From NCBI RefSeq assembly GCF_008831285.2, contig NC_045139.1:27872808-27936807 (forward strand): a stretch of DNA of 64,000 nucleotides. The letters run 5' to 3'. Origin of the DNA: Nymphaea colorata (lineage: Eukaryota > Streptophyta > Magnoliopsida > Nymphaeales > Nymphaeaceae). Below the pieces are notes generated by a model. The model did not search any database and was not told the DNA's origin. It saw only the letters and a program-made list of their open reading frames with translations. Shown piece after piece: positions 27,870-60,518 of the stretch. Each line of letters starts with the position of its first letter. The first letter of the stretch is position 1. A program made the position numbers and the translations under genes.

Positions 27870-30110
27870 TTGTGCAAGTTTCAGAAAAATGCCATGAACA
27901 AATATTGTTTTGGCAACATTGTACTAAAGAATGTCCTAGTGATGAAGAAAAAAGAGGAATTTGAAATGCAAATGTTGCAATATAGTTTATAAAGGTGGTG
28001 TAACAATAATAAATGAACATTTATCTCATATCCACTATGATGTTGCACCATGTAAGATTGCACCACTGAAAGTTAGTATAGTTTTTCAAGAAATTCTTGC
28101 AAACAAGGGTTAGTGAAAATGAAGAAAAGCAAGAGAATTTGCATATGGTTAGAAATAAAGGTTTTGGTAAAAGAACAAGTGGTGGTTTTGCTTCACCTTC
28201 TGTTACTAAGGTTGAAGTTCAAAAAACCTTATGAATCCATATGTAAGTTCAAAAAGTCAACAAACAACCATGGACAGTGTCGTAAAAAAGAATCAGAGAA
28301 AGATAGTCTGTTCTAAGACGAGGGAGTTCTTTTTTGCAAATGTATTGTCATTTAACCTATGTAGCGATTCATATTTTGCATATGTACAAATCTGTTGGAG
28401 AATATGGTTGAGGATTTAAACCATCAAGTTATCATGAGATGAGAACTTGAATCCTAAAAGAAGAAGTTGATAAAGTGAACATCATGTTAGAAGAATACAA
28501 GAAAACACAGACAATGAATGGTTCTAGCTTCTGGTTGGACTGATGGTAAGGGTAGGAACTTGATTAACTTTCTAGTTAATAATCCTTGTGATATTGTTTT
28601 TATAAAGTCTTGTGACATCAGTGGCATGAAGAAGACACCTAAGAACTTGATAAAGTTATATAGAAGTAACTAAAAAAGCTGGAGAATTGAATGTAGTTCA
28701 AATCATTACAGAAAATGCTGCTAGATATAGGGCTGCATGTTTAAAATTAAAGGAGATTGAAGGTTTTGAATATATTGTTTTGGCACTTTGTGCAGCACAG
28801 TATTTAGATTTGATGCTTGAAGACTTCAACAAGATACGTGTGCAGACGCAAACAATAGATGAAACAAAGGTGATAACTACATTTATATATGAGGGCACAT
28901 GGATGTTGAGCTTGATGAGAAAATTCATAGAGAATAAAGAACTTTTATGACCATTGTTACTCAATTTGGAACTTCTTAACTTACTCTACAAGTGTTAAAG
29001 CAAACAAAAGAGCATTGAAAAACATGTTTTGGTTTCTAGAGTTTCAAGGGAGTTATTATTATCTTAAAAATGGAAATTACAAAAAAGTGCAGCAAATAGA
29101 TGCTGTAAATGGATGCATCATTATCAACATGTTGCAATGTATTCTTTGAACCTACACTTTTTTATAACGATGAAGTTGGCAAAAGATATGAAAATGAATG
29201 ATGGGTTTTTAAAATGCTTGAAAAGAATAGTGTTTATTCTAGGGCAGCAATGTGACATTTGGATTAAACTCAATGCATATGAAGATGCATCTGGCTACTT
29301 TCCGAAACTTGAAGTAGCTATAACACGAAAGAGACAAAAGTCAGGTATACTTTAAATTTGTCATTTACCTTGTTTATTTATTATTCTAATTGCATTAAAT
29401 GAGCTCTATAAATTATATTTATTTTCATTTTCTTTTATAAGCCGATGTAGAACATATTTGGCATTGACAAAAGAATTGATGAACTTTGTTATGTGAGTTC
29501 TCAATCTTATATGTAGTGCATCAGGACGTGAACATAATTGAACTACATTTTCTTTGGTAATTAGTATATATTTGTTGTTTACATTCTTTATTTATATTAT
29601 TTCTTCACCATATATGTTTGCTATTAATGACTTTCAAAATTATTTGATAAATGATATGTGCATACAAGAAGAAGAAATCACCTTGAGCAAGAAAAACTTA
29701 ATCCTTTGGCTTTTGTTATGTATAACATGAAATTAAGTGAAAGACATAGAAGAAAAGAGATGGTAGAGGATCCTTTGTATGTTGATAATATTGATTTAGA
29801 CAATGAATGGGCTTAGAAAGAGAATATTATGTTCTACCTCCTTATTTAAATGATTTTTGGTTGGACTCAGATTTCAATATAAATGACATCAATATTGCCC
29901 CACTTGAAAATTTATTTGGATCCACAAAGGAGTGTAAGAAAGACTCATTGTGCATGACAACATAGGTCTGTAAAATATTTGTAAGATAACTAAAATGCTT
30001 TTGGTTGTTTATTAAATGCATTAATTTTGTTGATGTTTTTGAATAAAGATAAAATAAAATAAGAGATGAAGAAAATGAGAGTGCGGATGATGAAGAAACA
30101 TAATTATCCC
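27870..30110 (+). pseudogene. hAT-A: decayed hAT transposase gene
   Basis: Plus-strand relics in the order of plant hAT (DUF659) transposases. A BED-type zinc finger at about 27905-28070 reads FWQHCTKECP, then in another frame KCKCCNIVYKGGV and NEHLSHIHYDVAPC. DUF659 at about 28500-28950 includes LNVVQIITENAARYRAA and IVLALCAAQYLDLMLEDF. A dimerisation-type C terminus at about 29660-30105 has LNPLAFVMYNMKLSERHR and an acidic tail ending NESADDEET and a stop. Many stops and shifts make it non-functional. Element ends were not found. Confidence 0.8.
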
Positions 30111-39233: not shown

Positions 39234-42200
39234 ATGTTGGTGCATGATGCAAAGGCCAAATCTTCAGATGTGGAAGGTGTGAAGGAACAGGTACTTGTAC
39301 CTCTGTCTGCAAACATTCTATATTAGATGTAGAAGTTCATGGCAGCTATGATTCACTTCTGTTTTCAGCCCGTGGCAAGTGAAGGTGAGAAGATGGCCTC
39401 ATCTGATGTCTCGTTAGATTCCTCCACAATTGATTGTTCAAAGGATGTAGCAGGACAACCTGGCTCACAGGAAGTAAGTGGAGTGAGTAATGAAATGCAC
39501 ACTCCCACTGTATATGCACCTCAACCTATTTATTATGGAGGTTAGTTCTGTCACCTACCATCCCTTTGGATATGTTTGATTTTGTTGATGGAATAAACTT
39601 AAATAACGTTGTTTGTGGTGCTTGTGAAAAAGATATTGAAAAGAAAAGTATCTTGATGGTTTTGCAGAGCCTACTCTTTCTATTATTTGGCTGGGTTTCC
39701 ATAGAAATTGCAGCCTGCTAAAGTCAAAATAGCTGAATGGTTAATTTCCATCTTTCACTGGCCGTCTTTTCTGTCCAATTTTTTGCTCTGATCTAGCTTG
39801 ATAACTTTCCCATATGAACTTGCTTAGTGTAACCACTCCATTTCTCCTTGAGTCACTGTGCAGATTTTATGTATGCCTGTTGTATTTTAGTTGTAGACCA
39901 AGGTAATTTTATCTATTTTTGCTCCTCTTTAATAAGCCATATCTTCATGGTTAACATTGTCATTCCTTTATGTTTATGAGGTAAAGGGAGCTAGGTCATA
40001 TAGATTGTTATAGTCTTTTACCTTTATCTCCAAATGGGAAAGTTTCTTCTCCGAGGCTTCATTTGTTTCAAATGCTAAAAGAAAAATCTATAAGAGTTAA
40101 GACATGGATTTTGATGTAAAAAAAGCAACTTCATGAGAAAGAACAATTTGACTTTGCCAACAAAATGGCATGACTCAGGACAATATGCTCTTGGTAGTGC
40201 TGTGCCCTAAATACTTTCATTGCTATACTATTGGTTGTGCCACACCAGTAACAGTATTGTTTTCCTGCAGAAACAACAAAAATCTCTAAAGCAATAGGCC
40301 CCAATAATGTATTTTGTTGTGTGTATACTGTATACTTTGACATAACATTGGAGCTGTATTAGATATTTGTGTTATTTAGAAGGACTTTTTGTAATGTAAA
40401 GGAGAAGAAGCTATGTCACATGGGTATGGGTATGAGTGCGGGTATCGGTGCAGGTACGAGTACAGACCATTTTCAAAAAACTTGGGTGTGGGGGTATGGC
40501 CATACACACACAAATATATATATATATATATATATGTCAAAACATTTCAAACAAAATAACATATTCACATATATATATATATCAAAAAATTACAAACAAA
40601 ATAACATATTCATAAATCATGATCCAAAATCTCTCCAATTTTTCCCACTTCTCTTCTCCTTGCTCTTCTTTCGACCACCGTCTTCCAATCACCGGCGATT
40701 GGCGACTGAAAACTCTCTTTTTTAGGCGAGTCTCGTTCAGTCCTCTCTCTCTTTCTCTTTTTCTCTCTCTCTAACTCATCTCCTGAAACCCCTCCACCTC
40801 AACCCTCTGCGTCGAGGCGCAGGGTCTCTGCAAACCCTTTGCCTCAAGGCAGAGGGTCGAGGAAACCCTATGCAAAATTCCGACAAGCAGTCCCTCTCCT
40901 TGGCCATCGGATCGAATACAGCAACAACCACAAAATATACAATCTTATGCATTAACGGAAGAACGAAACTCGATCAGAAATGAAGAAAACAACAAACAAA
41001 AGAACAAAAATGAAGACGAAGTGAAGAACCATCGTCGTTCGCCCGCCATCGTTCGCTTGCCATCGTTCTTCACAAAACAAACGAAATCTCCTTTGCCACT
41101 TGCCGTTTGCTGTTCGCCGCCTGCCGTCATCGGTCTTTGTCGGTGAAGAGTGAAGACGAAGAACCATCGTCGACGAAAATATGTTTAAGGGTTTCGATAA
41201 TTTTAACGTGAAAATTGTAAAAAATGTTAAAATGTAAAACATGTTAAAATCTATAATCGGACCATTTTGGACTCGATCAACTTTGACCGAGTCCGAAAAA
41301 GGTTGAATTCGACCCCGGGTATGTTGACCGTACCTGGTGCGGTCAACACTGCACCCGCACTTGTACCAGTGTCATATCGGTACTCCTCAAGAGGAGTACC
41401 GGTGTTACATAGAGAAGAAGGAACAATTTGCTTTTGATCTTAAGATGCATTAGATCTCATGATACTTTTGAGATTGTACCAGCTTGCCCTTTGTACACAA
41501 TGACATGCACTCAATTGAGAATTTGAAACATTGTCAAGATATTGTACTCGGAAAAATATCAGCAAGCTTTTTCTCAGGCATTTTTCCATGAGGTTATTTT
41601 TCTCAGCAAATTTCGAGAAAAATCTGGGTAATTTTTTTTAAGAAAATAAAAAATTTTAAAAATTAGAAAAAATAAAATAAATGAGAACTGAGAAGCTAAT
41701 ATTAAACCAAAAAATTATCAAAATCGCGAGATGTTCATTTTTGCCGAGTGAGATTTTTTTGATATTTTTATTTTACTTACTTTTCTCGTAAATATCGTGA
41801 GATTTTCAAAAATTTCACAAGATCTGTGCCAGTGGTTTGAAATAGGGATCACCAGTTCTTAATCTTGGAAGATCATCCAATCATGAACTAGTGTGATTGG
41901 ATCAATTTGACTTTTTTTTTGGCCGGTTGTAGTGGTTAGTGCACAGATGTCATCGAGCTGCTGGTATACATATTTTAATGGTTGAGATTTGCTGTGCCAC
42001 TGTCATTTTTATATGAATATTATCTATAATAGTTGTTTCAAGCTTCTATGAAGTGTTTTTAGGTGATCAAATAGATGGAAGTTCATGGTAGGTTTCATCT
42101 TAGCTGGTGAGATGAAGCAAATTTGATACATAAGCATATTTTGGTGGTTCATGCCTTCATGGTGACCATGTCTAGTTTGGCGTGTTAATTAGCTCTCCTG

Positions 42201-45200
42201 CATATCAGTCCATGCATTTTGGATTTGGTTTTGTTTGATATTTCATATTGCTTATTTGTCACAGGGTTTTTAACTTGCTAATCCACTGCATTGAGTTTTG
42301 CATATTGGTACCAGTTCTACTTGTTCATGCTTGTGTAGGAGCTTTGGAATATTTGTAGTTTGAGAATTACTTAAGATGGACAAAGAAAAGGTTCTGCATG
42401 TGGTCTGATGAACACTAAATATTTCTCTTGGGATGAATATCTGAAAATATACTTCAGGGCATTGAATACTAGAGAGTATGGGGGATAGGATAAAGGAAAT
42501 CATAGGTTGATGATGAAGACTATGCAACAGCTTCCTCTGAGTGGGATAAGAACTTTAAGCAAAGTCATGGGCTTTGGGTTTGGTAGAGCATGTTATAGCT
42601 CTAAGAAGTTTAAGAATAGTAAAAAAATAGTTAAGTTTGATGATTCAGTGGAGTTCTTGGAGTATATGTATGCTCAAGCCAACTGGCTGGGACATGATTT
42701 GAAGAGATTATAGTAGAGAAATTAAACTATGTTTCTTTGCTTGCTATTTCAGCAGTTTTCTGTTACCCTTACTATAGGTTGCCTAACATGGAATATAGTA
42801 TTCATATTATGTCCTTCTGGATCATAGTAGATGTAAGGGACATGCAGAGTGTGACAGAGTAGAAGCTGAAGCCAATGATAAACAAGAAGCTATAGACACT
42901 TCATGAGCTGAACTTGATAGAGTATGAGTAGCATTATTCATCAACCTGTTTTGCCTTCTCTGGCACATTAAATAGTTTATTTTTCTTCAAGAACCTGTTT
43001 TGCCTCCTTTGGTGCAGTGAATAGTTGATTTCATGGTTAAAGAGGCAAGGACAAAATTTGGGTAGTAAAGGCTAAATGAGGTAGTCTTGACTGTGACTTG
43101 AAGGTTGGTGGTGAAGGGGGTAGTAGGTCTATGGACATAGAGAGAAAATGAGTTCAACCATTGAAAGATGAACTGAAATGCAGTATTATATGAGTAGCCA
43201 GCCTGGGCCAAGTATTTGGCATGATTTTGTGGCTGTCCACCAGCAAAACATATTAAGTGCCTTCTAATCACTTGGTTGATTAAGACCTTCATTTATCTGT
43301 TGTGTTAGGGATAATAGGTTGTGCTAAGTTCCACTTGAATAAAAAAAATATTCTCACCAGAAGTTACTTAGGAACACCATATGTCTGTTGCTATATATGC
43401 TGCATGCCCCCAGATATGACAGTCATCTACAAATTCCTTCTGTGTTTTTCTTCATCCTCGGCCACTTCAAGGTAGGTTAATCTGCTGGTGGCTGCAGAAG
43501 GTGGTCTTCATGTGCAGCGCATGGAGTGGCATGGAAATGCTCTAGGATTTACCAGAAAAGGTGTATCCTGGCAAGTAGATGTAGTTATTATAGTGGATCA
43601 CAGGATCAGCCTTTATTTCTGTTTGATATTTCCTTCATTTCACCAGATTCTCTTCCACTTTTTGCCTTAACTTTAGGATGTTGGGGCATTGAGAGTGGAG
43701 CTCCCTCACTTGCTCCCATAAAGTAAATGTTGGAACAGTTTAGCTGGGAGGCTATTCCTGCAGCCTCCGGAGAATTCAAAAATTATTGATTTTTTGGGTA
43801 GGCCATCTACTACTTGGTTCTTTTCTCCTCTCTGATAATTCATTGCAAATTTGTACCCCAGAAGTTTGGTAATCCACTGCTGCTGCATAGGGGTAGTTGC
43901 TTGTTGGCTTGGCAGATAGCGAAGACTTTGATGATTGGTGACCAAAATGAAGTGATGTCATAGATAATGTGGCTAATATTGAACTGCTAACACCAACATA
44001 ATCATAATTTCCACTCGTAGGCTGAGAGCAGCTCGAACCTTCCTTTCAGATTCAACTGAAAAGGTTATCGGGTGTTTGCCATGTGACATGACTGCACTTA
44101 TACTAGTTGTCGAAGCATTTGTTCAACTAGCAGGCTTGATGAGGTAAAGCCAGCACAAGTTCCTCAGAAATAGTTTTCTTTAGTTGTTCAAAAGCTCTAT
44201 TAGCCTGATTTCTCCAATAAAAGTTGTCTCTGTGGAGCAGGACTGTTTAAAAGGAGCTGCTAATTTGACTGTGTACTGTAGTAGCCTGGTAGGCACAGGG
44301 ATCACCGAAGCTCCTTAATTGAGCCATGTTGAAGAAAAGGATGCTTGATTACATTATCATTTTAACCTTTTGCTGATGTTCCCACAAATTCTAAAGTGCC
44401 TTCTCTAGGTGTTTCAGGTTCTTCTTCCATGATTTATTGTATATCAAGATGTCAATGAAGAAGACGAGTATGACTTTCGTGATGCGCCTTGTCATGTTGT
44501 TCATAATGTTTTGAAATGTAGCAGGGGCATTCTTAAGGCCAAAGGTCATTACTATGAGTTGATAGGGAACTTCGTGTGTGCGAAACACAATTTTTTTTAA
44601 ACTCTTCCTCCACCATTGTAATTTGATGAAAATCGACATCTAAATCTACTTTGGATCACTACCATGCTCCAGGTATTCCATCTGAAGCTCTTATATGAGA
44701 TATATCAAATACTTATTTTTCATCTTATCAACATGTAACGTGCAGTACTGCATGCAGGATCATCATGTTCCGTTTTCTTTCCCCCCCCTTATGATAAGGA
44801 GTACTGAGATGAAAAAGGTCTTTGGTTGGGCTTTATGATACCATACCCCTTGTTGCAATTTCTTCCTTTAGCTTTTCATTTTCTTTCCGTTGAATGTGTG
44901 AATTGCCACATGGTCTAATTGCAACAGGCTTAGCTGCCTCTTCCAGGCAATTTGATGATCCACTCCTCTACTTCGTGGTAGTTGTGGGGCTTTTCAGAAT
45001 CATAAGAATGATGCCTTATTAGAGCATATCTTTGGCACCAACCCCTGATTTGGTATCTTCTTTACCTATGTAGCACTCAGACACTTGCAAAGTCAATGCT
45101 TGAACTCTTGTCTTGAAAATTTTGTGTGATAGGTGTTGTGGCTTCTTTTAATTGGGGGTTCTTCATGGAATTGGACCATAGTTGGCAAGCTTGTCAATTG

Positions 45201-48200
45201 CACTCAGAACAGTCAATGACTGGTTGCCAGTTCAATATGTTGACTCTATGACTTGGCTAGATATGGTCGTAAAATTTTATGAAGTATTTCTAGCAGAGAT
45301 TAATGAAGAAGTTGAACATATTTTTAAAATAACAACTAACAAGTAATATCAAGTATATAAATCGAACAACCAGAGTTTATGATGCAGTCTTTAGAGGTTC
45401 ACGCTCTAAACCCCATGGAAGAATGCAACAAAAGCAAAGTTGAACAAACCAAAAATGAAGAGAATGAACAGAAACAAAAGGGGGCTAAAATTAGGGCTAA
45501 TAGCCTAATACTCATTAATCTTGATCAAGGAATAATCACAATGAAGAAGCATGACCTTTAAATAGGGTCTCCAACACCTAAGCAGTGAGGACATTTTAAT
45601 AGGTCTGGATCCAAATAAATAGACTAAAGAAATAAACAAATGCCTAATAAAGGCACTAAGAGAACTATTGCATCAATTTATGAGCATTGAACACAAATTA
45701 CAGCAAGCAATTACAAAATAACAACTAACAGCTAATAAGCAACTTTTAACACGTAAAAAGTTGTCAAGTGCAATCAAAATATCAAATAAGTGCACAATAC
45801 GTAATGATACAAGGCGTAACAAAATTAAAGTGTGCAAGACCTGCAACAAAATTAGGTGGGCCACAAAATGCATTCTCATGTTCAAAGAAAGGAAACACCT
45901 TTGAAACTACTACTCCTTGATATTTTTAACATGAAAAATCAGAAAACAGATTAAACACCTGACAAACTAAAGGATCATCAAGGATTAAAGTTGAATTCAA
46001 TTTACTATTGCTAGAAAGAAGTGAGAGAGAGAGAGAGAGAGTGGGTTTGAGGTTGCTAGAGAGGGGGAGACCCCAGTCCTCGATAATAATCATCAGGAAT
46101 GACTGCGGGCCGGTTGGGGGGAGGGGGGGGGGGTGGATAGAGATTGTTGGGGACTCAGGAATGAGAGAGAGGGAAAGGCCCTTCTCATTGCAAATCTTGA
46201 CTTCAAAGTCAATAAACTAAGGATAAGCTTTTAACACTAAGGTCAGAAGTAGAAGAACACAAAACAGAATGAAAACAGTTGTATTTAACCACAGTAAAAT
46301 GCTTCAAAGAAGCATATCTTACGAAGGGGAATGTAACGGCTCTAGGTAGCCAATAACCATATCCATTGGAAGGCCACCAGCTAGAAAGCTAGCTTGTTGG
46401 AGCCTCCAACAGCTATAGGCTGCAGAGCTTTTGCTGCAACACAAAAATAATAAAATAAATAAAAAATTAGAAAAAAGAGCATATAACGCCTCTTATACAT
46501 GCAGCCCGATGCTATATATAGATACACACACATACATATACATATACACACCTTAACACTGACAAACCCTGAGGTTTTGCGAATTGCTAGCACTATCCTT
46601 GATGATTGTCACAGAGTTGGGAATGGAAAGAGGGAGTCAGAGAGAGAGTGACTAATTTATTTGATAGTATTTTGTTGGACAGCATTGCCGGGGGATGGCC
46701 CGCTAGTGACCGTGGCCCTTTGTCCTCTGGTGAAACCACCGCAATAGGCAATGCTCCAGGTGCAGGACAAAAGGTTTCGATAGCTTATAGTGGTGCTAGT
46801 GTACCCATTTCAAGTGTAAAATTGGGTCTTCAAAACCATACAAAATGCTGTATTGTGACATATACTACCAATTGGATTGGACCAAACTCAGCAATCTCAA
46901 TCCTAATTCTTCAATTCGATGATTCAATTGATCTAGGCTCAATTCCTCCAAAGATAGGTTTGTATGGATCCAGTCCTGTATTATTACCCAGCTTCTAGCC
47001 AATCTGAGCTGACTCAGGTGATTCCCAAATAGACTCCCTGGGTTTGCTTGTAACTCCACCTATGTACCGCCTAATCCAAATCTCATGGACATCCTTGCAA
47101 AGTCCTGTCACCCGTTGGGTTGAACACAATAGGGCATTTCTGGTACTGCTATATTCCATGGGACTTGTCAGCCCCTCTCGTAGATAACATGTGGAAATTA
47201 TCTTCAAAGTGTACTCCCTGTATTTCTTGGTGGCTTTGACTGCTGATGGTTCGGTCCTTGCAGTCTTGCACCCTTACTTCAAATGGTATATGAGTTCTAG
47301 CTTGGTATTTACAATAAGTTGCAGGTCAACTAGTGTAGATCAACGTACTAACCTCCTTGTGATTGATGTTGCTTGCCAATCTTGTGGCTCTGATAGCCTT
47401 CATTCCCTCCATTTCTTGCATTGACATCTTCAGGTCCACTTGATTCTCTTCCTTCGATCTAACCTACAGGTCCTTCTCTTTGATGTTGCTTGCCAATCTT
47501 GTGGCTCTGATAGCCTTTATTCCCTCCATTTCTTGCATTGGCATCTTCAGGTCCACTTGATTCTCTTCCTTTGATCTATCCTACAGGTCCTCTTTTAGAT
47601 TCCTCATCCTCTTTATCATGTACATGCTTAATTGTTTATGCTGATGTCCAACCATCCACTTTTCCTCCCAATTACAGTCCCTCCATGTCCTTTCATTTGT
47701 TTTTACCTTTTTAAGATACATTGGCTTGTCTTTTATGGCATTTGATTCAGCTTACCGTTCATCATGGCTCCTTGCTTACTACCATAGATTGACCTCAACT
47801 CCATACACTCTGGTAGATTTTGTTCTTTTTCTTGATGATTTTGGCCATGTTGAAGCATTTAGACAATAAATGAGGTTGAGCAGCCTGGACCTCAATTTGG
47901 AGTTCTTCCTTTAGGCTCTCGGAAGGCATCATGTTAAAGCTTCTAGCAGCCAAACCAATAACCATGTGACTGACAATTTCAAATTGTGCCTGCAAGGATC
48001 CCTTTAGCTGGATCATTATTAGTTACAATGTTAAAATTAACATAGCAAATGGGCCAAATATATACCACAATTGCCTTGGTGAACAACTCCCAGCTTGATC
48101 ACTCATGGAGGCCCTCGTACAAATGATATTTCTTGATGTCCTTGCCCTCCAACCTAACTCCGGTATTTGCTATTTTAGCCTTTGGTCAGATCCCTTGAGA

Positions 48201-51200
48201 AGTGAGATACTAGTCTGCCCTAAAACCCTAGTTAGGTGCATCATCCCTATGGAACCTTGAAATTTTTGACTTTGCTGGCTGGTATTGCATTGAGATATTC
48301 CTCTCATTTGGATCAAATGACATTGTTCCCCTTGGTCTAGTCGAAGATGACTATCCCTTTTCTCTCGATCCTTCCCTCTACGACTACCTTCATTTGGCTG
48401 TGAGGTCAGGCCTCTTGACTGATTTGCCCTTGACATTGATGCTTCTTCTAGTGCCTGAGGCATTTCCTACTGGATGAGATGCATTTGGTGGGTTTTTACC
48501 TCAGGAGGCCTTATAGCTTTTGTATTATGCTTGCAAGGTGCTTATGCTATTATTGACTCCACTCATCATCCTCTCCCACCTTGCCTTCAATGAATTAGCA
48601 CTAGGGCATGGAAAGATTTCTCCACTTCGAGGAGTTCTCTTGACAACTCTCCAATGTCCCTCTCTTGGGGCAAGTCCAATAATTTATAGTGGGGAAATCC
48701 CAGATGCATCTTCTGTCTAACAACAAAAATCTTCCAATTTTTCGAAGCTGACTTCTTAGTGGAATCTAAAGAGTTAATAGTGTGTCACCGGTTTGCAAGG
48801 GATATCAAGCGACCACAATATCGTGTGGAATTTAATATAACACTGTGGTTCTTGAATGAAGAGGAATTGGAAAATTCTGTTGCTCAGAGGCAACTTTAAG
48901 AGTTTCAAATATTTATTATTGTTAGATTTAGATCTACTCTTTTGTTCATATAATGAGTCGGTGATTGCTCCTTGTTAGTTCAGCTTGCTACACTTCTCAA
49001 GTTAATTGATTAAATACAAGGTCTTATATTCCACAACATTTCGCTGTTTCAGCTCTGACATGTGGAATTTGCTATTTGAGGTTCCAGTGCCGCATCCATG
49101 TTGACTTGAGGGGATCACTGTGTCTTGGGTGTGGTAAGACGAGTGTTATCCGTATCGTATGATATGGGCCCGTATCATGCGATATCGTATAGGTTTTCCA
49201 ATAGGTTATGCCTATGATATGCCTAGGTATTGTAAGCATATCTCCCGCATCGTGCGATATGGGGGTTGTATCGTACGATACACGATACTATTTGATGGAA
49301 AAAGGGATTTTTTTCATGCTTATTTTTAAAATAGTTCATCCCTCCCGCTTTAAATATCTCTAAGAGCTTTTGGGGGGGGGGTGGTGGGGGTGGTTTGCTA
49401 GTTTTCTGGAAAAATTGACCATATATTGGTGAGGACACTTTGTTAATATATGGTTTGGTTCAAGTCATACCTGACCCATTTACACCACACGTAGCACATA
49501 ATGGGCGGTGGAAAACTTGTAATATTTATTTTATTGTTCTTTTGTGTATTTTATTTGTAACACTTAAATGTAATTAGTTTAAGTAATGACAAGGGCCAGT
49601 TGCTCACCCAAAAGGCCCTAATTTTTCTTCTCTCTGCTTTCTTGGGCAACCTCATTCTCCTCTCTTCCTCTCGTATCTTCTTGAGACTCCATCTGGTGGT
49701 AATATATCAAAATCTTACATGGTATTAGAGCAGGTTTTGCCATTGAGAATGTCCGGTGAGAGTTTTTGATCTCTGCCCTAATCTTTTTGATCTCTACCCT
49801 AATCTCAAAACTGCTGTTTTTCTGCCCTAATCCCTCTGATTTCTGCCCTAATCCTGAAAGGCTGAAACTGCTGTCTTTCTGCCTTAATTTCCAAGGCGAT
49901 CTATCCTAGTTCCTAAAACTTCAGCCCTAATTTCCCAAGCCGTCTGCCCTAATTTCTACACCTATCTAATTTCTAGACCTATCGTGCCCTAATTTCCAAA
50001 GTCGTCTACCCTAAATTCCTATCCTTGTAGGTATAGCCTCAAAGTCCAAATATGGATCAAAACCGCAACTTCACCATCTTGTCGTCTAGCTTCTCTCTCA
50101 ACTCATCTCACAAAAACTGAACCATACCAACCTATGTCACATTGTACGGGTACGGGAAAGCGGGTACGGCCTACGGGTACTGGGTACGACATTTTCGCCA
50201 ATCTTGGTATGGCGGTACGGTGATAGTTATATATTTTTAATTAATTATATACATGAAATCAGCAAAAAAGTAACATAAATATAAGAAAATAATGCCAGTT
50301 TTGCCATAGATATGTTGTATGAAGGTAAAGGAGAAGGAGGAAGAGGTGTTAGGCAAAAATAGGTTCATTTAAAGTGACATAGGTATTATGTATGAGAAAG
50401 AAGGAGGAGTGCCGTACCACCGTACCGGTACTGGTACTTGGGCCCTTCTCACGTACCACTGTGACATAGATACCAACTATTTGACATGGAAACGTCAAAT
50501 AGTTCTCTTTATTAAGAGTCCTTGCCTCTATGGACACCTCAATGGCACCACACCTGCGCCACCAAAATGGATCATGCGGGAAGTAAAAAATGCTGCAGGG
50601 CAAGTTCAAGAAACCATCACACAAACCAATCCTGAATATGAGACATGGATGACTCATGATTAGTCTCTTGTTGCATACATTACCTCCACACTATCACTAT
50701 CAGAGGTCCAGAGGAAGTCCTGGCGGGCGTTGATGATGACCTTTCAACACTTGAGTTATAGAATGTACTCACTACTACATATTCTCAAGTATGAGAAGTG
50801 AGATTCATGCAACTCAAGAGGCAGTTCCAAGATAGCAAGCGAGGAACACACTCAGTTTTGGAGTACATACATGAAATAAAAAATGTCAGCGATCATAGGA
50901 CATCCAGTCAGTGACAAGGACAAGGTAAAGAAGGCTCTGAGTGGATTGGGGTCAGATTTTGATGTTTTCTGCACTCCTTTAGAGGTGTTACATGTTCTTC
51001 TTTCTTTTGAAGACTTGAAAGCAAAATTGATTCAACATAAAGCAAGTCGTATACAACGACAAGACTTGCCACCTTCTGGCAGTCACAATATATTGGTCAC
51101 TAGTACCCACGTCTTGCAAGGATGTCGTCCTCGAGTTTGGAACTCACAAGCAGGGACTAGGAGAGGTAACACCAAACACAAATGCACAGGCGAATGTACC

Positions 51201-54200
51201 ACGAAGAATACCCATTTGTTTTTATTGCAATAAGAGATGTCATTCGAGCTGAAAGCCTGAACACCTAGAATGGGTTTCAGTTTCCAAAACACCTGCTCGA
51301 GCAAGGTTAACAAACCCTCGATCGAGCGAGGGTCTGAGAGAGAACAGACCTTTGCTCGAGCGAGTGTTTGAGGGAGAACAGATCTCACTCGAAGAGGTTA
51401 GAGAGAAGATAGACATTCGCTTGTGCAAGGGTTTGTGGGTTTCAGAAACCCTTGCTCGTTTCGCTCGAGCGAGGTCTTGGCTCAAGCGAAACCCTCACTC
51501 AAGTGAAACCCTTGCTCGAGCAGAGATCATTGGGTTTTTGAGACCCTCTCTCGTTTGAGGGAGAGAGGGTTTCAGAAACCTTGTTTTATCTGATTTAGAG
51601 AGAGAGAGAGAGAGAGAGAATAGTACCGTTGTCGCAGGCTGTTGCCATCAACAGTTCCACCGATCGCCAGATGTTAGTGCTGATCGAAGGAGTTCGTTGG
51701 CATTAGAGGATGAAAGAGGAAGAGAGTGAAAAGAGAAAAAAGACAAAAAATGAAGATGAACCAATGAGGAAAACAATCAATATTTGTTGCTCCAGCTAAC
51801 GAGCCGAGTTAAGTGAGCTTCGTTAAACGAACTCGAATTCGGCTTGCTAAAATAAACGAGCTGAACGATCAACTCGAGCTCGATTTCGAGCTGAGCTTTA
51901 ACGAGCCGAGTTCGAGTTGCTCGACTCGTTGTTTACCTTAGAGGTCATGTGAAGTCAGAATGCTGGCATAACCCTCAAAATAAAGGAAAACAAGTTAGGC
52001 GTGAAAATAAGATAGTAGGGCCACCTGCGTCGAACACAATGGCGACACAAAACATTCTTCCTGATGTGTAGCAGATCTTACTTACAACTTTGTTCAAAGT
52101 CAATCTTAAGCAAAATGAAGAAGGATTATGGTTTGTGGATTCTGGTGCCGCAATTCACGTGACTAATGACGCAGGTAAGCTTTCTATTTTTCTTCCTTAT
52201 TTAGATAAAGGCTCAGTTATCATAGGAGATGGTTCTCATCACAAAGTATCTCATATTGGAAATGCACATCTATCCATGGCTCATTCTTCCATACCTTTAA
52301 AAAATGTTCTTGTTGTTCCGGATGTCAAGAAAAATATTATTTTCGTGTCAAAGTTTATTGATGATACTCGTTCTTTTGTTTAGTTTACTCCATCTTCTGT
52401 TTATGTCAAGGATGCTCGAACCAAGAAGACATTCGCTGAGGGTGTGCGCAAAAGAGACATGTACGTCATTGAAGAAGCTCCAAAAGTGTCCAAGTCATGT
52501 GTTTCAGATTCATCTTTTTCCAGTCAGAGTGAAGTCAATCTAATAGAGTATGATAAGTCATCCATTGGCATGATTGTTTAGCACGTTGTAGTCGGTCTTT
52601 CATTCAAAGTCTTGTTGTAGACGGACTATTGCATAAGTCTAGTTTGAGTCCCGTCAATGAGTCTAGCATGTGCTCAAACTGTCATATTTGTAAAAGCCAT
52701 GCCTTACCTTTTCAATCGATAAATAAGCGAACTTCAAAGTTATTTGATACCATATACTTTGATGTTTGGGGGCCTGCTCCTATTTCTTCTTCTTCAGGGA
52801 GCAAATATTATGTTGCTTTTATTGATTCTTATTCGCGGTACACATGGATCCACTTTATGAAAAGCAAATTAGAGGTTTTCTGCTTGTTCACCCAATCCCA
52901 TGCCTTGGTCCAAAACAAATACTCTTGTAATATTGTGCATTTTCAATGTGATGATGGGGGCGAGTTCATTTCCAATGAATTTACTGAGTATTTACTAAAT
53001 CATGGGATCACTCGACAGAGTATTTACTAAATCATGGGATCACTCGACAGATTTCCTGTCCTCACACACCACAACAAAATGGTATTGCTGAAAGAAAGCA
53101 CAGACACATAGTTGAAAGTGCATTAAGTATGATGTATAACACAGATGTGCTCATGAATTTATAGATTGAAGCCTTCCATACTGTTGTTCATGTCTTGTTC
53201 ATGTCATTAATCGACTGCCATTATCTCTACTTGATTTCATCTCCATTCTTTATTTTACATCAAGAACAACCAAATTATGATGACTACGTGTTTTTGGATG
53301 TGTCTGTTATGTCCATGTTGATATTTCTTTGAGAAATAAGTTTCAAGATCGATCTATTATCTGCAGATTTGTGGGTTATGCAGATAGATGTTACAATCTA
53401 AAGACTAGGTGCATGCATATTTCACATGTTGTTTTTGATGAGCTCAGGTTGAAGGACTTAAAGGAGCCACATGCAACATTCAATGCAAGAGATAATAATG
53501 CAAGAGATAATACATATGATTCATGGCTAAACGCTGAAATAGCAGGCCAAGGAGCTGATGCATATCACACACACAGTGACAAAATTATTGATGAATTCGA
53601 GGCAGCCATCAGATACTCAGATGGACAACACGCCTCTATCTACTCAGACAAACAACACGTCTTCACCTAATCGTTTTTCAAGAATGGTATATACTCGATG
53701 ATCAGTTACAACAACCGCTCCAGAAACTGTCATTACTTGCCCATGTAGATCAAAACATGTGCGGCACCTTATTGATAGATGGGTAAGCTATGATAACTTC
53801 TCGTTAGATTTTCAGCTTTTTATGACAAAATTGAGCAAAAAGGTGGAGCCAAAATGTTATGAGCATGCATGCAAAAGCAAATATTGGATCGAGGCCATGA
53901 ATGAAGAAATGACTGCCTCAAATGAATGTCAAACTTGAGCAATTGTTCCTCGTCCAAATGATAAGAATGTAATGGGTTCAAAATGAGTTTACAAACTCAA
54001 AGATAAACCCGATGGAAGTATTGATAGATATAATGCTTGTGTTGTGGCTAGAGGCTTTACTCAATAGTATGGGAAAAATTATGATGAGACATTCAGTCCA
54101 GTTATCAAGATGAGAATGATCCGGTTTGTCACTTCTCTTGCAGTTTCACATGGATGGACTTTATATCAGTTGGATGTTAAAAATGCTTTTCTCCATGGTT

Positions 54201-56183
54201 TTCTAAAAAAAGAAGTGTACATGGAATAACCTCCAGGTTATGCTACCAATGATCCAACTCAATGGGTCTGTAAATTACAAAAATCGTTATATGGGCTTAA
54301 GCAAGCATCTCGCTGATGGTTCGATAGATTTTCTCTTCATATACAACAGGCTGGTTTTCTCAGAAGTTTGCTTGATCATTCCTTATTCATATATCATACA
54401 GGTGAAATTACAACTTGGCTACTCATATATGTAGATAACATAGTTCTTGCTGGAAATTCTCCATGTCATATATCTAATGTTAAGGAAGTGTTAAAGCAAC
54501 AATTGAAGATGAAGGATCTTGGGGAACTACAGTATTTTTTGGGTTTTGAGCTTGATAGAAAGAGTGATATGTATTGGCTCTTATGCAACACAAATATAGT
54601 CTTGATATATTGGATAGAGCAGGTATGACAAATTGCAAGCCCATAAATACTCATAGTGTTCTCAACACAAAATTGAATGCCTCTAATGGGAGTGATTCAT
54701 ACTCAAACCCTAGTTTTTATCGGAGAATAGTTGGCATGTTGCAATATCTCACATTTACACGCGCAGACATAGTATATGTAGTGAATCAAGTATCTCAGTT
54801 TATGCACGCACCCACAGAAGGACATATGGATGCTATTAAACGTATTTTGCGCTATCTTAAGGCTACTCTTGGGGATGGACTCATCTATACAAGGAAGTGA
54901 ACCATTTTGAATGGACATAGTATTTCCACTTATACTGATGCAAATTGGGCAGGTGACCCAGATGATAGACAGTTAGTTTTAGGTTATTGTATCTTTCTTA
55001 ACTCCAATCTTGTTTGTTGGAGTAACAGAAAACAACGTGCAATTGCCAGATCGAGCAATGAGGCAAAATATAGGGCCATGGCTGTCGGTGCAGCTGAAGC
55101 TTCATGGTTACGTCTTCTTCTTGGGGAACTCTCCCTCCCCATTGCTCAATCATCTCTATTTTGCGATAACCAAAGTGCCATCAAAATTGCTTTCAGTCCT
55201 ATCTTACATAATCACACTAACATATAGAGATTGATCAACACTTTATTTGCCAGAAAGTTGAGGAGAGCGAAATTGTTCCTATTTATATATGTACGTCTCA
55301 ACAAGTGACTGAACTATTTACCAAGGATCTTATAGGGCATCATTTCTAGGAATTGAAAAACAAGTTGTACATGATCAAACCTCATGCACAACTTGAGGGG
55401 GACTGTTAAGATATGGTTCGGGTCAAGTCAGACCCGACCCATTTACACCATACGCAGCACATAATGGGCGGTGGCACACTTGTAATATTTATTGTTCTTT
55501 TGTGTATTTTATTTGTAACGCTTAAGTGTAATTAGTTTAAGTAATGACAAGGGGTGGGTGCTCACCCAAAAGGCCCTAATTTTTCTTCTCTCCTTTCTCG
55601 AGCAGCCTCATTCTCCTCTCTTCCTCTCATATCTTCTTGGGACTCCATCTGGTGGTAATATATCAAAATCTTACACACATAACGAAGAAAATGAGGATGA
55701 CGATGATGATGATGATGATGATTATCGTTGATTGATGGCAATCATGAATTTGGCACTTGGCAATGAACAATTATATGTGTGAACTTGTGATATAATCTAA
55801 AATACTTTAAACTTGTGACGGATGCTTATTAATTATTATGTTATTTTGATCTATGAGTTCTCATTTTTGAATGTGTTGTTGATATAATGGATTATGAATG
55901 ATGAATTATGAATGTTCTTTATGTGATGATTTTTCTGTATGAAATATTTTCTGAATTTTTCCTAATCTTTTTTAGTTTTTTTTTGAGTTAAAAAGTTAAT
56001 TTTATGATATGTTATGCTACATTTACGATATGTTATGATACAACATATAGGTCGGTCCGACCGATACGTGTTATGTTTCAATTTCTACAACATTAGGTAA
56101 AATAACCCAGACTAGGAAGAGGAGAGGCAGGAGGAAGGAGGAGGAGGAACATACCTGGTGGGCAATGGAGGGGGTTACCACAC

Positions 56184-56271: not shown

Positions 56272-59200
56272 GTTTGGTTTAATATTTTTAGCATTCAATC
56301 CTCCTTTTCTTATATTTACAGATAAACTTGTACACTTGAGGAAAACCTTTTTTATGTTCTCCTATGCTGATTTTGGTGAGTTTACCTTATGGATATTCAC
56401 CCAGCTTTTATATTTTTTTCAGTTTTTGTTTTACGTTCGAATGGTATTGTCTACAGTTGAAGTTGAGTATAAGGCTATGCCCATGCTGCTGCTGAGATAA
56501 TGAGTATGGTGGTTGTTACGTGTGTTGGGATAGGTACTTGTAAAGCTCACCTTGTATTATGACAGTGGCATTCATACGGCTAAACTATTGGAATTTTATG
56601 AGACAACGAAAAAATAGGTTGTCATTTTATAAGGAAAGCATATTAGGAGAGGTAACTGCTCTTGAGCACATGGGTTTTGGAGGGCAACTTGCAGTTGTAC
56701 CCAATGTATTCACTAAGCGCTCAGCTCCATTTCTGTTGGTAAGATTCTTTTAACAACAGGCTATGCTAAGCTTGAGGAAGAGTGCTGAAAAATGTAAGTT
56801 TTGATGCTGCTTTTTGAATTTTAATTGTAGACTAAGGGCTTTGAGGTCTGTACCTTCTTAGGCCTTTCTGAGGCTTAGTGTAATCAATTTTCGGATTCCT
56901 TTCAGGGCCAAGGGGCATGGCCAATATCAACTATAGTAGTATTTCACCCATTTACATTTAATAAAGAGAGTTCTACTAGAGTATATTGATTTAGCAATGC
57001 TTTGATTTTATTCTTACATGTTTTTAAGATGTATGTTTTAGATTTTGATTTGTATTGCAATTATTGTGTAATTGAAGAATTATCTTAACCATTCATTTTT
57101 TCTAAATAAACCTTTTAACAGGTTATGAGAACTCCATTGGTGGATGGGATGAATACCCTCAATATCTAAATGTTGAAGGTGTTGAAATGAGTTCTCCTGT
57201 AAGTGTTGTGAATGTGTGTTACCTTAATTTTCACTTTAGTTCTATGAGTTGGCGTTCAAATGGTTTCTTTTTTCATAGGGAGTTTATCATCCTGGATATG
57301 GATATAACCCTCAAATGCCTTATGGTCCCTATTCTCCATCTACAACGCCTGTGCCTCCCGTTCATCCACATAGTCCTATGTACTCTCCACAGCAATTCCC
57401 ATATACAGGTTCCTACTACCCACCAGTAGTTCCACCCACTGTGCCATATATAAGTTCACCAACACATATCTCTCAAGCAGATCTTTCTATGCCATCCAGC
57501 GTTGATCAACAGGGAGGTTTTGTTCCAGATGGTTCCATGAACAACAGTGTGCAACTTGATACAGGTCCTGGCTATTCACCTCCTTATGGATCTCTGGGTA
57601 GAGGGAACTTTTCTGGGAGTGCTGGGAATAATGGCTACTATGATTTTAGGCAAGGCTTTGATGGTTTTGGGTATAGTGGATCTTGGTCAAATTCATGGAG
57701 GATGGCTGAGGGGCAAAACAGATCATTGAATTCCTTAGCACCATCCTCTGCGCAGCCAGTTACAGAATCTCTAAGGCATAATATTGCACCTTTGGCTCCT
57801 GGAGCTGTAAGTTATTTTTTGCTATGTCAATGCATAATTTGATTATGTAGAACACATGCTATTCTGTTTGTGCATGTTTTTTCTTACCTGCCTATTTTTC
57901 TCATTTCGAGATAGTAAATGCTTCCTGGTCTGGAATCACTTGTTTGCTTGTGTACCATTGAACTTTGGTTGTTCACGTTTTTAATATGCTTGCCTGTTGC
58001 ATGCCAGGATAATTTGTACTCTTTGCACCCTGTGGTTCTTTAGTTTAGAGGTTTATGATTCATGTGTTTTTTTAATCCAGGGAAAAGGAAAAACTATGAG
58101 TTGCTTTTTTCCTTCAAATGGTGACTCTAATATGCTTTGGGATCCAGTTGTAGTGGTTGGTAAATTTATTAGAAAGCATGAGACATTCTGTCCCTGTTGC
58201 CTTGGAATATACCCAGAAAATATACACAGAGATATCTTCTGTGGACCATATCTCAAACTTACTTGAGCATTTGAGGTAATGGCGCATCAAATTGCCTAGA
58301 ATAAGTTTGTAAGGGGAAGGATTTTTTCTTCAAAAATCTGCAGATGTTGTTAATATTGCATTATTTCTTCTCCTTTTTGCTGTAAGATTGACAAATTTTA
58401 TCAAATTCTTGTTCGTTTTAAATACTTGTATATGACTGATTTTCCAGTTTCATGCTTCTTCCCAGCAAAGATCAGCATATGGCTCTGGTGCATCGATAAA
58501 TACCTCTGGCAGAGTGTATGGACATGGTGGATTCTATAATCAAGGTGTTAACGTTGGAAGATCTGGGCTTGGTTTTGGTGCAAATAGCAGGAGTTGGGTT
58601 TCTGTTGACAAAGGTCAGCGCAGAATAAGAGGTAATGGATCCTTGTGCAGCTGCAATGGCACACTTGATATTATTGGAGAACAAAATAAGGGACCCAGAG
58701 CTACAAGGCCAAGATCATCAGATCAGGAATCTAATACTGACGGCAAGAATGGTAGATCTACTGTGGATGCACATAGTGGAAAGTATAACAAGCTTGACTT
58801 TGTCACCGAGTATGAAGATGCTAAGTTTTTCATCATCAAGTCGTATAATGAAGATAATGTTCATAAAAGTATTAAATATGGTGTTTGGGCTAGCACAACT
58901 AATGGTAATAGGAAGTTGGATTCAGCATATAACGAATCAAAGGAGAAAGGACACAGCTGCCCAGTGTTTCTTCTTTTCTCGGTGAGCAAGCTATGCATTC
59001 GTCAGTTATTATTCTTGTCCATAGTCTCAGACTAGTTTAATGCAGTTTTTTGGGTGCTTCAAGGTGCTTGGCAGTTCATACCATCTGCAAGAGTATCTTG
59101 ATCTGTTCTTCATTTGGCTCTTGATTCAGTAATTGTATAAAAGTAGTCCTTAGAAACATCCTTGCGTCTTTATGGTCATTTGAAAATGAAGTTGTTCTTG

Positions 59201-59493
59201 GGAAACCTCTTTCTCTCTCCTTTGTTCCATTCTTTTGATAGCGCGACCCTTTTTTGTTCATGCCCTTGCCATCCATGCAGGTTAATGCTAGTGCACAATT
59301 CTGCGGAGTAGCTGAGATGGTGGGGCCAGTGGATTTTGATAAAAGCGTGGACTATTGGCAGCAGGATAAGTGGAGTGGCCAATTCCCAGTCAAGTGGCAT
59401 ATTGTAAAAGATGTGCCGAACAGCCTGTTTCGCCACATTATTCTGGAAAATAATGACAACAAGCCTGTGACCAATAGCAGAGACACACAAGAA
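39234..59493 (+). CDS. YTH-domain m6A reader, ECT family (six exons, 3' end missing)
   Basis: Exons 39234-39290, 39369-39540, 57122-57198, 57279-57806, 58448-58981 and 59281-59493, all GT-AG and in one frame, give 527 codons. Family members bind N6-methyladenosine in mRNA in the cytoplasm. Residues 1-400 are a low-complexity N-terminal region: [18 protein letters not shown] near 80-100, then a Tyr/Pro/Gly/Ser-rich stretch. The conserved [20 protein letters not shown] precedes the YTH domain, which starts near 400. The three cage tryptophans are present at 425 (GVWAS), 482 (DYWQ) and 487 (KWSG), with the 57- and 5-residue spacing I recall for Arabidopsis ECT2. The last exon here ends after SRDTQE at a GTAAGG donor; the C terminus was not found before 64000. 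The start is the first in-frame ATG of the exon; a further upstream exon is possible. Intron 2 is 17.6 kb and full of transposons. Confidence 0.9.
40411..41412. mobile_element. Non-autonomous hAT-type element, CTATGTCACA family (1.0 kb)
   Basis: Flanked by the exact 8-bp direct repeat AGAAGAAG (40403-40410 and 41413-41420). The termini are CTATGTCACA on the left and TGTTACATAG on the right, inverted with one mismatch. Subterminal parts are rich in GGTACGGGT-like words (GGGTATGGGTATGAGTGCGG on the left, CCGCACCAGGTACGG on the right as complement). The core has TATATA runs and a C/T-rich block. There is no transposase. It lies in intron 2 of the YTH gene. Confidence 0.85.
41545..41850. repeat. 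AT-rich fold-back-like block
   Basis: Contains A-rich then T-rich halves and recurring words CTCGGAAAAATATC, CTCGTAAATATCG and TCTCAGCAAATTTCG. It looks like a degraded short DNA element, but ends and target duplication could not be defined. Confidence 0.35.
41851..42980. other. Intronic non-coding stretch
   Basis: Part of intron 2 of the YTH gene. A plus-strand open frame at 42507-42713 (68 codons) has no recognisable domain and is not called. Confidence 0.45.
45350..47190. other. Unassigned stretch within Gypsy-B
   Basis: Contains a GA run at 46021-46041 and a G-run near 46117-46132. A plus-strand open frame at 46606-46998 has no known domain. It separates the gag and RT parts of Gypsy-B and could be a nested insertion, but no LTR pair or target duplication was found. 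Confidence 0.4.
47364..47590. repeat. Tandem duplication, 117-bp period
   Basis: Two copies of about 110 bp (47364-47473 and 47481-47590) starting TGATGTTGCTTGCCAATCTT and differing at a few positions. On the minus strand they read [16 protein letters not shown], so it is probably a duplicated piece of the Gypsy-B gag region. Confidence 0.85.
48464..49130. other. Intronic non-coding stretch
   Basis: Spacer between Gypsy-B and the left hAT-B remnant, within intron 2 of the YTH gene. No gene is seen. Confidence 0.45.
49131..49440 (+). mobile_element. hAT-B remnant, left part
   Basis: Rich in CGTATCGTATGATAT and CGATAC words that also mark the ends of the hAT copies at 55990-56075 and 62690-62750. 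It is interrupted by Copia-C at 49441. It is probably the 5' terminal region of an internally deleted hAT element. A G-run (49370-49400) lies inside. Confidence 0.6.
49441..49719 (+). repeat. Copia-C 5' LTR
   Basis: 279 bp, with a close direct repeat at 55404-55675. The two keep long identical stretches, for example the segment around TTCTTTTGTGTATTTTATTT. Confidence 0.9.
49720..49731 (+). other. Copia-C primer binding site
   Basis: TGGTATTAGAGC immediately follows the LTR terminal CA. It has one change from the tRNA-Met site TGGTATCAGAGC. Confidence 0.85.
50132..50469. mobile_element. MITE, CTATGTCACA family (338 bp)
   Basis: Termini CTATGTCACA and TGTGACATAG are a perfect 10-bp inverted repeat. 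They are flanked by the exact 8-bp duplication ATACCAAC (50124-50131 and 50470-50477). Subterminal GTACGGGTACGGG-type words are shared with the 40411-41412 element. Removing it rejoins the Copia-C gag codons as NHTNYLTWK, so the precise insertion site is known. There is no coding capacity. Confidence 0.93.
51237..51943. mobile_element. 0.7-kb insertion splitting the Copia-C zinc knuckle
   Basis: Left of it the frame reads CFYCNKR; right of it the frame reads GHVKSEC. Together these are the CCHC knuckle (C-x2-C-x4-H-x4-C), so everything between is extra. AGAG occurs at both borders (51233-51236 and 51940-51943), a possible short target duplication. Content: GCTCGAGCGAG words in both orientations at 51290-51560, a GA run at about 51598-51620, and the GAGCCGAGTTCGAG family at 51780-51925. 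No coding frame or clear inverted ends, so the class is open. Confidence 0.75.
51598..51620. repeat. (AG)n microsatellite
   Basis: A short pure AG run inside the insertion at 51237-51943. Confidence 0.85.
52986..53049 (+). repeat. Exact 32-bp tandem duplication in integrase
   Basis: Two identical copies of a unit starting GAGTATTTACTAAATCATGG. As 32 is not a multiple of three, the duplication shifts the integrase frame between the second Asp and the Glu of the catalytic triad. Confidence 0.95.
55404..55675 (+). repeat. Copia-C 3' LTR
   Basis: Direct repeat of 49441-49719. It includes GGGTCAAGTCAGACCCGACC, a motif of the same kind as the palindromic repeats at 12.4 and 14.3 kb. Confidence 0.9.
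55676..56078 (+). mobile_element. hAT-B remnant, right part
   Basis: Begins with the acidic end of a hAT transposase ([13 protein letters not shown] then YR and a stop), matching the tail of hAT-C ([10 protein letters not shown]). It then carries a T-rich trailer and terminal words ACGATATGTTATGATAC and GGTCGGTCCGACCGATACG, as at 62690-62750 in reverse. Copia-C inserted just in front of these last codons. Confidence 0.75.
56179..56268. repeat. Compound (CA)n(GA)n microsatellite
   Basis: About 43 bp of CA followed directly by about 47 bp of GA, in intron 2 of the YTH gene, about 850 bp before exon 3. Confidence 0.95.
56440..56800 (+). pseudogene. Copia-D: RNase H relic
   Basis: Broken plus-strand sequence with [12 protein letters not shown] (the SxxEAEYxA motif of copia RNase H), then [13 protein letters not shown] and a C-terminal part with TQCIH-ALSS. 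Its position beyond hAT-B shows that it is a separate, older copia fragment. No LTRs are seen. Confidence 0.6.
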
Positions 59494-60518
59494 GTAAGGA
59501 TTCTTCATGGCTTAAGCCTGTAAATTATTTTTGTCATTTCTTATGAAGTCATCTGGGTATTATTTATCTAAAATAGGGTATCTATGGTTTGAGTCTTGAA
59601 TGTTGTATTTGTGAAGCCTGTGTACATCCTATGGTTAAACATGCATGTTCTCATAATTTATTTCCCACTCATGTGGATGGAGATACATGATGAGTCATGA
59701 GTTTGAAAAGATCTCAACTGGACACTGGAACATACATTTTCTTTTCTATTTTTGTTCTCTTCTTAGGACATATAAATGATTCACGTCGACCAATAGCAGA
59801 CAGATTTTTGGACAGAAGAATCTCATTTACTTGTTTATTTTAAGTTTAAATATTTGTTTCTGAAGCCTGTAGTTCCTGAGAAAACTATGATGCAGTGGAT
59901 TACCGCTTCATCCTGATGTATGGGCTCTACAAACAGATTGGCCAACAGAACTTTTTGAGAATAAAATTTTCACTGACGTTAAATCCATATGTTTTTATAT
60001 TTAAAATGTCATGCACATAAAGAAAAATCGGCTTGAGAGAGACTTATATGCAAGTTAAATTGGATTTCTTCTATGTTAGTGAATACAGAGCAATGGATAG
60101 GAGCTGAGAAGGAACAGAATAAAATACTCCAATGTTGAAGCTGGACATGGGAGATGAAAAGGGGAAGTAATTTCAGTACAGTCCAGTTATTAGAATCAGC
60201 AATCAGGTTTGATGAGGGGTAGCCTGTTAACGCCTTAATGGTCCTATTCTTGTACATTCCACAAATCCATCTTTTGCTCCTAATCCTTTGAATTTGTAGA
60301 CATTGTATGACAATCATTATAATTTATAGGACCGTTGGTTTGAGAATATTGTTGCTCAGAACTTTCCAAGCCATTACTAGCCCTTGGGATCTAATTGGCT
60401 TGCATAAGGCTTCGTTTTGAGAATAGTATCACAATAATTTTGGAACTGTCTAATCCAAGTGTCTTGAGCATTGCTGTCTCAGAATTCACCAAGGTCAAAC
60501 TAAGCCTTGGGACATGCT
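59494..60518 (+). other. Non-coding stretch after YTH exon 6
   Basis: Follows the GTAAGG donor of exon 6. No continuation of the YTH coding sequence is recognisable, so the next exon probably lies right of the window beyond further transposons. I see nothing else. Confidence 0.5.

Follow-up and report, generated by a model that had tools for sequence, protein, structure and literature searches.

Two elements with common ends

The 64-kb stretch of the Nymphaea colorata genome that was analysed here (the window; C2:27872808-27936807) contains two short DNA elements, in the following called e1 and e2, which carry inverted ends of the same type and are each flanked by a duplicated target site. 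We are highly confident that both belong, as non-autonomous copies, to a single plant hAT family, which is organised like maize Ac/Ds and whose full-length copies encode a hAT transposase. The assignment is based on the ends, the duplications, the copy number, the transposase in elements with the same ends and the homology of the ends of e1 to one such element. The two elements and the retrotransposon that hosts e2 comprise the following features:

40403-40410 and 41413-41420: left and right copy of the e1 target-site duplication AGAAGAAG, exact over 8 bp
40411-41412, plus strand: e1, non-autonomous element of 1,002 bp with left end CTATGTCACA and right end TGTTACATAG
41370-41412, plus strand: fold-back at the right terminus of e1, with 19-nt arms that are 84% complementary
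50124-50131 and 50470-50477: left and right copy of the e2 target-site duplication ATACCAAC, exact over 8 bp; the left copy consists of in-frame Copia gag codons
50132-50469, plus strand: e2, miniature non-autonomous element of 338 bp with perfect 10-bp inverted ends and GGTACGG subterminal words
50374-50382, plus strand: the terminal 9-mer GTGACATAG repeated in the interior of e2
49441-55675, plus strand: Copia long terminal repeat (LTR) retrotransposon hosting e2, with LTRs at 49441-49719 and 55404-55675 and a primer-binding-site-like TGGTATTAGAGC after the left LTR

The inverted ends of both elements are of the CTATGTCACA type with at most one mismatch (10 of 10 positions in e2, 9 of 10 in e1). 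An initial annotation, made from the letters of the window, had given the coordinates, the lengths and both duplications, all of which proved exact on recheck, and had described the ends of the shorter copy as perfect over 10 bp, which is also true. Its statement that the two copies share termini and subterminal words is confirmed with one small correction: the right end of e1 reads CTATGTAACA and differs by one base from the left one. The two 8-bp duplications are unlike each other.

The first GTAC or GGTA word starts at base 13 from all four ends. Subterminal words were counted inward over the terminal 100 bp and compared to a background of 12,780 100-bp windows, taken from both strands of the same 64 kb with the elements included. 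GGTAC is found five times at the left end of e2, a count equalled by 3 background windows, three times each at the right ends of e2 and e1 (19 background windows) and only once at the left end of e1 (684). The looser word GGT[AG][CT]G occurs five times at the left end of e1 (6 background windows) and only once at its right end (560). Apart from the ends the cores are unrelated, as already stated in the initial annotation; BLAST at 1e-5 returned no match between e1 and e2. The G+C content is 42.4% for e1 and 40.5% for e2.

Pairs of ends lying no more than 2 kb apart, with at most one mismatch and an exact 8-bp repeat, were observed twice in the window and in none of 300 windows simulated with a first-order Markov model. 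When two mismatches were allowed, the two observed pairs compared to a single pair in all 300 simulations. A search of the window without any given motif (inverted ends identical at 8 or more of 10 positions, exact 8-bp repeats) placed e2 at the top of the eight pairs listed; repeats built from fewer than three letters were skipped, and e1 is outside this result because AGAAGAAG has only two letters. The element at 1241-2459, described below, was picked up by this search as well. With nhmmer and the four ends as query only these four exceeded the inclusion threshold in the window, and the next two matches fall inside e2 and e1. It could be argued from the presence of only two copies in the window that the inverted repeats arose by chance and that their flanking repeats are a coincidence. 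We regard this as practically negligible in view of the simulations, the counts in the genome given below and the position of e2 in phase within gag codons. An artefact of chance or of microsatellites is likewise ruled out by the simulations together with the end counts in the own genome. Two exact-pattern scans gave no copy in viral contigs; three matches were obtained in bacterial and archaeal genome contigs, none of them with a flanking 8-mer repeated within 4 kb, and these are taken as chance.

The LTRs of the Copia host are 90.3% identical over 279 positions. If the flanks of e2 are joined with one copy of ATACCAAC, they are translated in one continuous frame across the junction, and the 20 amino acids obtained there are what we take to be a gag motif. 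For the right flank by itself, a match to Retrotran_gag_3 begins at position 18 of the 48 in the model; its E value of 0.0033 is below the curated cut-off of that family. Stops lie upstream in the gag frame, so gag is either decayed there or begins there. The insertion of e2, including its 8-bp duplication, hit gag sequence that was already present.

Other contents of the two elements were considered and rejected. For the capture of a host gene in the core of e1, two of the three frames of at least 90 amino acids that overlap the element were searched and gave no Pfam match at 0.01 (the third, 40363-40725, was left out), and one frame gave no match in the PDB. For a structured RNA, Rfam at gathering thresholds returned only two tRNAs in the window, both outside e1 and e2. 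The predicted fold of e2 has a z-score of -1.69 and 8 of 100 shuffled sequences fold as well, which makes it unexceptional; the fold of e1 was computed without a shuffle control.

Copies and transposase genes in the genome

The ends were counted in the assembly of the own genome (407,766,735 bases in 783 contigs). CTATGTCACA is found 4,779 times in comparison to 466 times for the reversed word, CTATGTCACAYRGGT 2,066 times in comparison to 2, and the 21-mer CTATGTCACANNGGTACGGGT 541 times in comparison to 0. The first of these numbers overcounts the family because an unrelated repeat carries the bare 10-mer as well. The initial annotation had expected a high copy number from two copies lying 9 kb apart; the expectation is borne out by the two longer words, the argument as such is weak.

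The pairing of ends was studied for the first 30 CTATGTCACANNGGTACGGGT loci listed, all on contig C1, with 1.5 kb on each side. At 15 of these loci an inverted right end (at most two mismatches to CTATGTCACA or CTAAGTCACA) together with an exact 8-bp duplication was identified, whereas none of 600 8-mers taken 20-400 bp outside the elements paired in this way; the length of 8 bp was fixed by the design of the test. The paired elements are 316-1,112 bp long, and CTAAGTCACA is a recurring variant of the right end, seen at 5 of the 15 loci. A looser pairing, in which the duplication may contain one mismatch and the end three, includes 21 of the 30 loci. The genome search proposed with the initial annotation thus recovers further copies with 8-bp duplications and variable lengths.

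An element with the same ends and a transposase gene, which had been proposed as a second check, was found at the following four loci, each with an exact 8-bp duplication:

L029, seed C1:1673668: unit L029:1001-6730 of 5,730 bp with duplication GTTAAACC, made up of a transposase-bearing copy (1001-4552), a 1.7-kb spacer and a short member (6262-6730)
L062: complete element of 3,543 bp with duplication AGTAGAAG and ends CTATGTCACA and CTATGATACA
L063: complete element of 3,639 bp with duplication CCTATGGC and ends CTATGTCACA and CTATGATACA
L065: complete element of 3,869 bp with duplication GTTTTTAG and ends CTATGTCACA and CTCTGTAACA

In the three complete elements the second end is two mismatches away from CTATGTCACA. 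The reversed motif gave no pair at the four extra loci (L062-L065). The minus strand of L029 encodes a 431-amino-acid frame with DUF659 (8.5e-43) and a second frame with Dimer_Tnp_hAT (PF05699; 2.1e-8, above the curated cut-off); the frame located between these two gave no family match. At L062 one open frame of 698 amino acids contains both DUF659 (7.1e-44) and Dimer_Tnp_hAT (1.5e-14, above the curated cut-off), and its C-terminus matches the Hermes transposase weakly (2.5e-5). Such a predicted open frame alone is no proof of an active transposase. BED zinc-finger families were not matched by the frames of L029 or L062. The hAT superfamily, to which the elements had at first been assigned by the 8-bp duplication, is therefore also backed by the transposase itself.

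A search of the genome for Dimer_Tnp_hAT was scored for 150 of 1,113 candidates, and all 150 match. With the 431-amino-acid piece as query at least 102 match rows were obtained (97 of 1,329 candidates scored); by hand count, 56 of the rows listed have an identity of 70% or more, some of these being two pieces of one gene, and the other 46 have 40-68%. The transposase matches were also compared by hand to the listed 21-mer ends, over C1 and the part of C2 that the list covers. Of 17 matches there, three (C1:1673668, which is L029, C2:4472500 and C2:8909691) are accompanied by an exact 21-mer end at a distance of 1.2-1.6 kb and in like arrangement, where about 0.05 would be expected from the density of the 21-mer. 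A sister transposase lineage of about 58% identity is present on several contigs, with at least 11 rows that have an open 670-amino-acid frame without stops. Five of these share one score, which suggests near-identical copies that may have multiplied recently.

The relation of e1 to the transposase-bearing copy of L029 is seen in two regions:

40411-40630, plus strand: left region of e1, which aligns to the left end of L029:1001-4552 over 220 positions with 80% identity
41173-41303, plus strand: right-side region of e1, which aligns to the right side of the same copy over 141 positions with 73% identity

The fold-back beside the right terminus is also common to both, and the middle 0.54 kb of e1 has no match to L029:1001-4552 at 1e-5. 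Since the ends match this copy while the middle does not, e1 is, judged by the alignment, a Ds2-like derivative with true ends and foreign filler.

The relatives of e2 are of another kind. It matches two of the sampled loci, L033 (316 bp) and L056 (323 bp). In the genome at least six other places span 333 or more of its 338 positions with 77-86% identity, and at least five more stretches run from position 41-50 to position 338, so that there are at least 11 long relatives in all, 77-86% identical. Altogether at least 49 stretches match, e2 itself included (40 of 145 candidates scored). By these comparisons e2 is an old, separate miniature subfamily of about 340 bp that is tied to the family by the ends and words only.

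Proposed mobilisation by a hAT transposase

Three properties of hAT elements are found together here. Target duplications of 8 bp flank e1, e2, 15 of the 30 sampled loci, L029, L062, L063 and L065, and none was found at L064; short inverted ends occur with repeated subterminal words; and a transposase with the dimerisation domain is encoded within elements that have the same ends. The full-length copies of about 3.5-3.9 kb would provide the transposase with its DUF659 and C-terminal hAT dimerisation domain. By analogy to Ac/Ds it most likely reads the CTATGTCACA termini and, over the terminal 100 bp, the words of the GGTAC type, and would excise any DNA between two correctly oriented ends and reinsert it with an 8-bp target duplication. 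If only the ends are required, elements with replaced or deleted interiors could be carried in trans. In this manner e1 would be foreign filler enclosed by what it kept of a transposase-bearing copy, about 220 bp from the left end and about 130 bp from the right side, and the e2 subfamily of about 340 bp would have been amplified separately. The filler was probably acquired when gap repair following an excision was interrupted. The terminal 9-mer in the interior of e2, which appeared in 36 of 20,000 e2 cores simulated with a first-order model, would fit slippage during such repair and is no proof of it.

Several observations weigh against one hAT family that moves all these copies. The sampled CTATGTCACANNGGTACGGGT ends without an exact-duplication partner within 1.5 kb amount to 15 of 30; at one of these, L032, the element outruns the stretch. 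A second sample (run without a control) consisted of the first 20 CTATGTCACA places listed, L012-L031, each taken with some 7 kb inward of the end; it overlaps the first sample at two positions, L029 being the same place as L032 and L031 the same as L033. Only three of the 20 have an exact duplication (L019, 401 bp; L029, 5,730 bp; L031, 316 bp), five more have one with a single mismatch (L018, L020, L024, L026 and L028), and another five (L014, L015, L016, L022 and L023) are one unrelated repeat. L012, L013 and L017 show no GGTA or GTAC in their first 100 bp. The four extra transposase loci are a non-random sample, picked among the stop-free ones of the eight best matches, and at one of them, L064, no end pair was found. 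Between e2 and L029:1001-4552, the sole transposase-bearing copy compared, there is no extended homology at 1e-5. No excision footprint, polymorphism or transposition was seen. The termini are also not typical. hAT ends tend to follow the consensus YARNG; here they read CTATG, where A would be expected at position 2. We treat this consensus as non-defining, because elements with these very ends carry a hAT gene. Furthermore, the termini of e1 and e2 lack the CA start that is given for hAT termini in the available part of PMC4423477.

As an observation of its own, the unrelated repeat at the five places carries CTATGTCACACTGACGTTTTCT(T/C)CTGGGACTGCA behind a TTACCTCT-like word.

The misfit to YARNG might also point to another superfamily with 8-bp duplications, such as P or Mutator-like elements, that merely resembles hAT, and other plant superfamilies can have similar duplications. 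In the light of a hAT dimerisation domain above the curated cut-off in elements with the same ends, and of the 8-bp pairing (its length set by the test) with a control of 0 in 600, this is very improbable.

More weight is to be given to the idea that the e2-type elements are moved by another hAT lineage than e1, either by cross-mobilisation or as two families with convergent ends. It would account for the extended homology to L029:1001-4552 that e1 has and e2 has not, and several hAT lineages do exist in the genome, as seen from the two identity classes of the listed transposase rows (56 of at least 70%, 46 of 40-68%). A transposase relative of 55% identity at C2:8910923 is located 1.2 kb from a CTATGTCACAATGGTACGGGT end (hand comparison). 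Against this, e1 and e2 have the terminal 10-mer and the length of the duplication in common, and their first GTAC or GGTA word is equally placed; we consider a second lineage rather unlikely.

The structure of L029 deserves attention. Its outer ends at 1001 and 6730 share the exact duplication, whereas the inner right-type end at 4552 (flank GCCACAGG) and the inner left-type end at 6262 (flank ATGTGCAG) have unlike flanks, and no other end pair within L029 has matching flanks when two mismatches are allowed. In the spacer a retroelement RNase H sequence (RT_RNaseH_2, 1.3e-14, about 4561-4698) starts at most 10 bases from the inner right end (the query was cut at 4553); two other spacer frames gave no family match. 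In the simplest reading the transposase-bearing copy and the short copy would have moved jointly with the 1.7 kb between them, and the end pattern corresponds to the trace expected from macro-transposition of two neighbouring hAT elements. That pairs of elements also act as composite units and carry the enclosed DNA along is on this basis a tentative proposal, for which we see nearly balanced prospects with a slight lean towards doubt.

Neighbouring features and known hAT systems

Further features of the window are:

1241-2459: third hAT-like non-autonomous element of 1,219 bp with exact duplication ATTTTCTC and ends TTATGTTGTCAATG and CTATGTTGTTAAGG
7695-8084 and 15217-15612: direct repeats on either side of Copia-like frames, 87-90% identical and separated by about 7.5 kb
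28654-29744, plus strand: decayed hAT gene with DUF659 (1.9e-12)
58436-59523, plus strand: exons of a YTH-domain gene (PF04146, 1.9e-16 and 1.9e-25)
62678-64000, minus strand: 3' portion of another hAT transposon with Dimer_Tnp_hAT (2.9e-14), truncated by the end of the window

The element at 1241-2459 contains subterminal CCTAGGC-type words and two identical 86-bp tandem copies (1908-2079). The direct repeats are probably the LTRs of a second Copia element. The transposon at the right edge has a Hermes-like C-terminus (1.8e-4), the end YAATGTTRTC, of which YAATG fits YARNG, and GTATCG words; a relic of its family at about 55680-56094 adjoins the right LTR of the Copia host. Its gene (63108-64000, minus strand) is ruled out as partner of e1 and e2 by this different type of end and words. 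The decayed hAT gene, the C-terminal piece of which is 50% identical over 30 amino acids to the hAT gene at 63.5 kb, was also rejected as partner, as no end pair of the e1/e2 family was among the pairs listed for 28.6-29.75 kb.

Among the closest known systems is Ac/Ds from maize, for which the accessible part of PMC3260210 describes 11-bp ends, 8-bp duplications and transposase-binding hexamers in the terminal 200 bp, a Ds1 of about 400 bp and a Ds-l4 with filler and a modal length of about 1 kb. As in Ac/Ds (Ds1, Ds2, Ds-l4), short inverted ends, 8-bp duplications, subterminal words and heterogeneous copies with filler are found beside a transposase-bearing element. The two-component organisation is also present here, as copies without the gene share their ends with a transposase-bearing copy and contain variable filler (e1 in comparison to L029:1001-4552; lengths of 316-1,112 bp). 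In contrast to the Ac/Ds termini (C/T)AGGGATGAAA and AAACGG hexamers described there, CTATGTCACA and GGTAC-type words are found in the water lily. By analogy, the e1/e2 family works like Ac/Ds, yet is not Ac/Ds proper, as the termini differ. According to the same part of PMC3260210 Ac did not excise any Ds-l element that was tested, and shared ends alone are thus no proof of mobility; because of this many of the copies reported here may be immobile.

BniHAT-1 and BniHAT-2 from Brassica nigra, in the portion of PMC7385995 consulted, resemble the present family in their many copies, 8-bp duplications, inverted ends and assignment to hAT. They are given there as hundreds of copies with 25- and 12-bp inverted ends, lengths of 673 and 666 bp and 70-75% A+T, whereas the sampled lengths here are 316-1,112 bp and e1 has 42% G+C. 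The hATpin elements are, by the titles of references, derivatives of hAT that are similar to miniature inverted-repeat transposable elements (MITEs) and have stable secondary structure. The right fold-back of e1 is alike, the fold of e2 is ordinary.

A Solanaceae repeat starting with CTATGTTGCTCGGACTC, putatively a hAT MITE and at most a possible relative, has the start CTATGT in common. The excerpt of PMC3237444 contains a tobacco small RNA that holds CTATGTTGCTCGGACTC. A literature search for the end sequence gave, among the papers listed, none that deals with transposons by its title, and neither CTATG nor CATAG occurs in the available main texts of PMC3991616, PMC8227079, PMC12804786 and PMC6466647.

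As a finding of a known type this is ordinary, and the understanding of hAT transposition is unchanged by it. For the annotation of the genome it accounts for some two thousand ends that are all of one type. The ends, the duplications, the transposase-bearing copies and the miniature derivatives of a large hAT family are tied together by sequence within a single plant genome, where the capture of filler, the cross-mobilisation of hAT lineages and a possible transposition of composites are thereby open to study.

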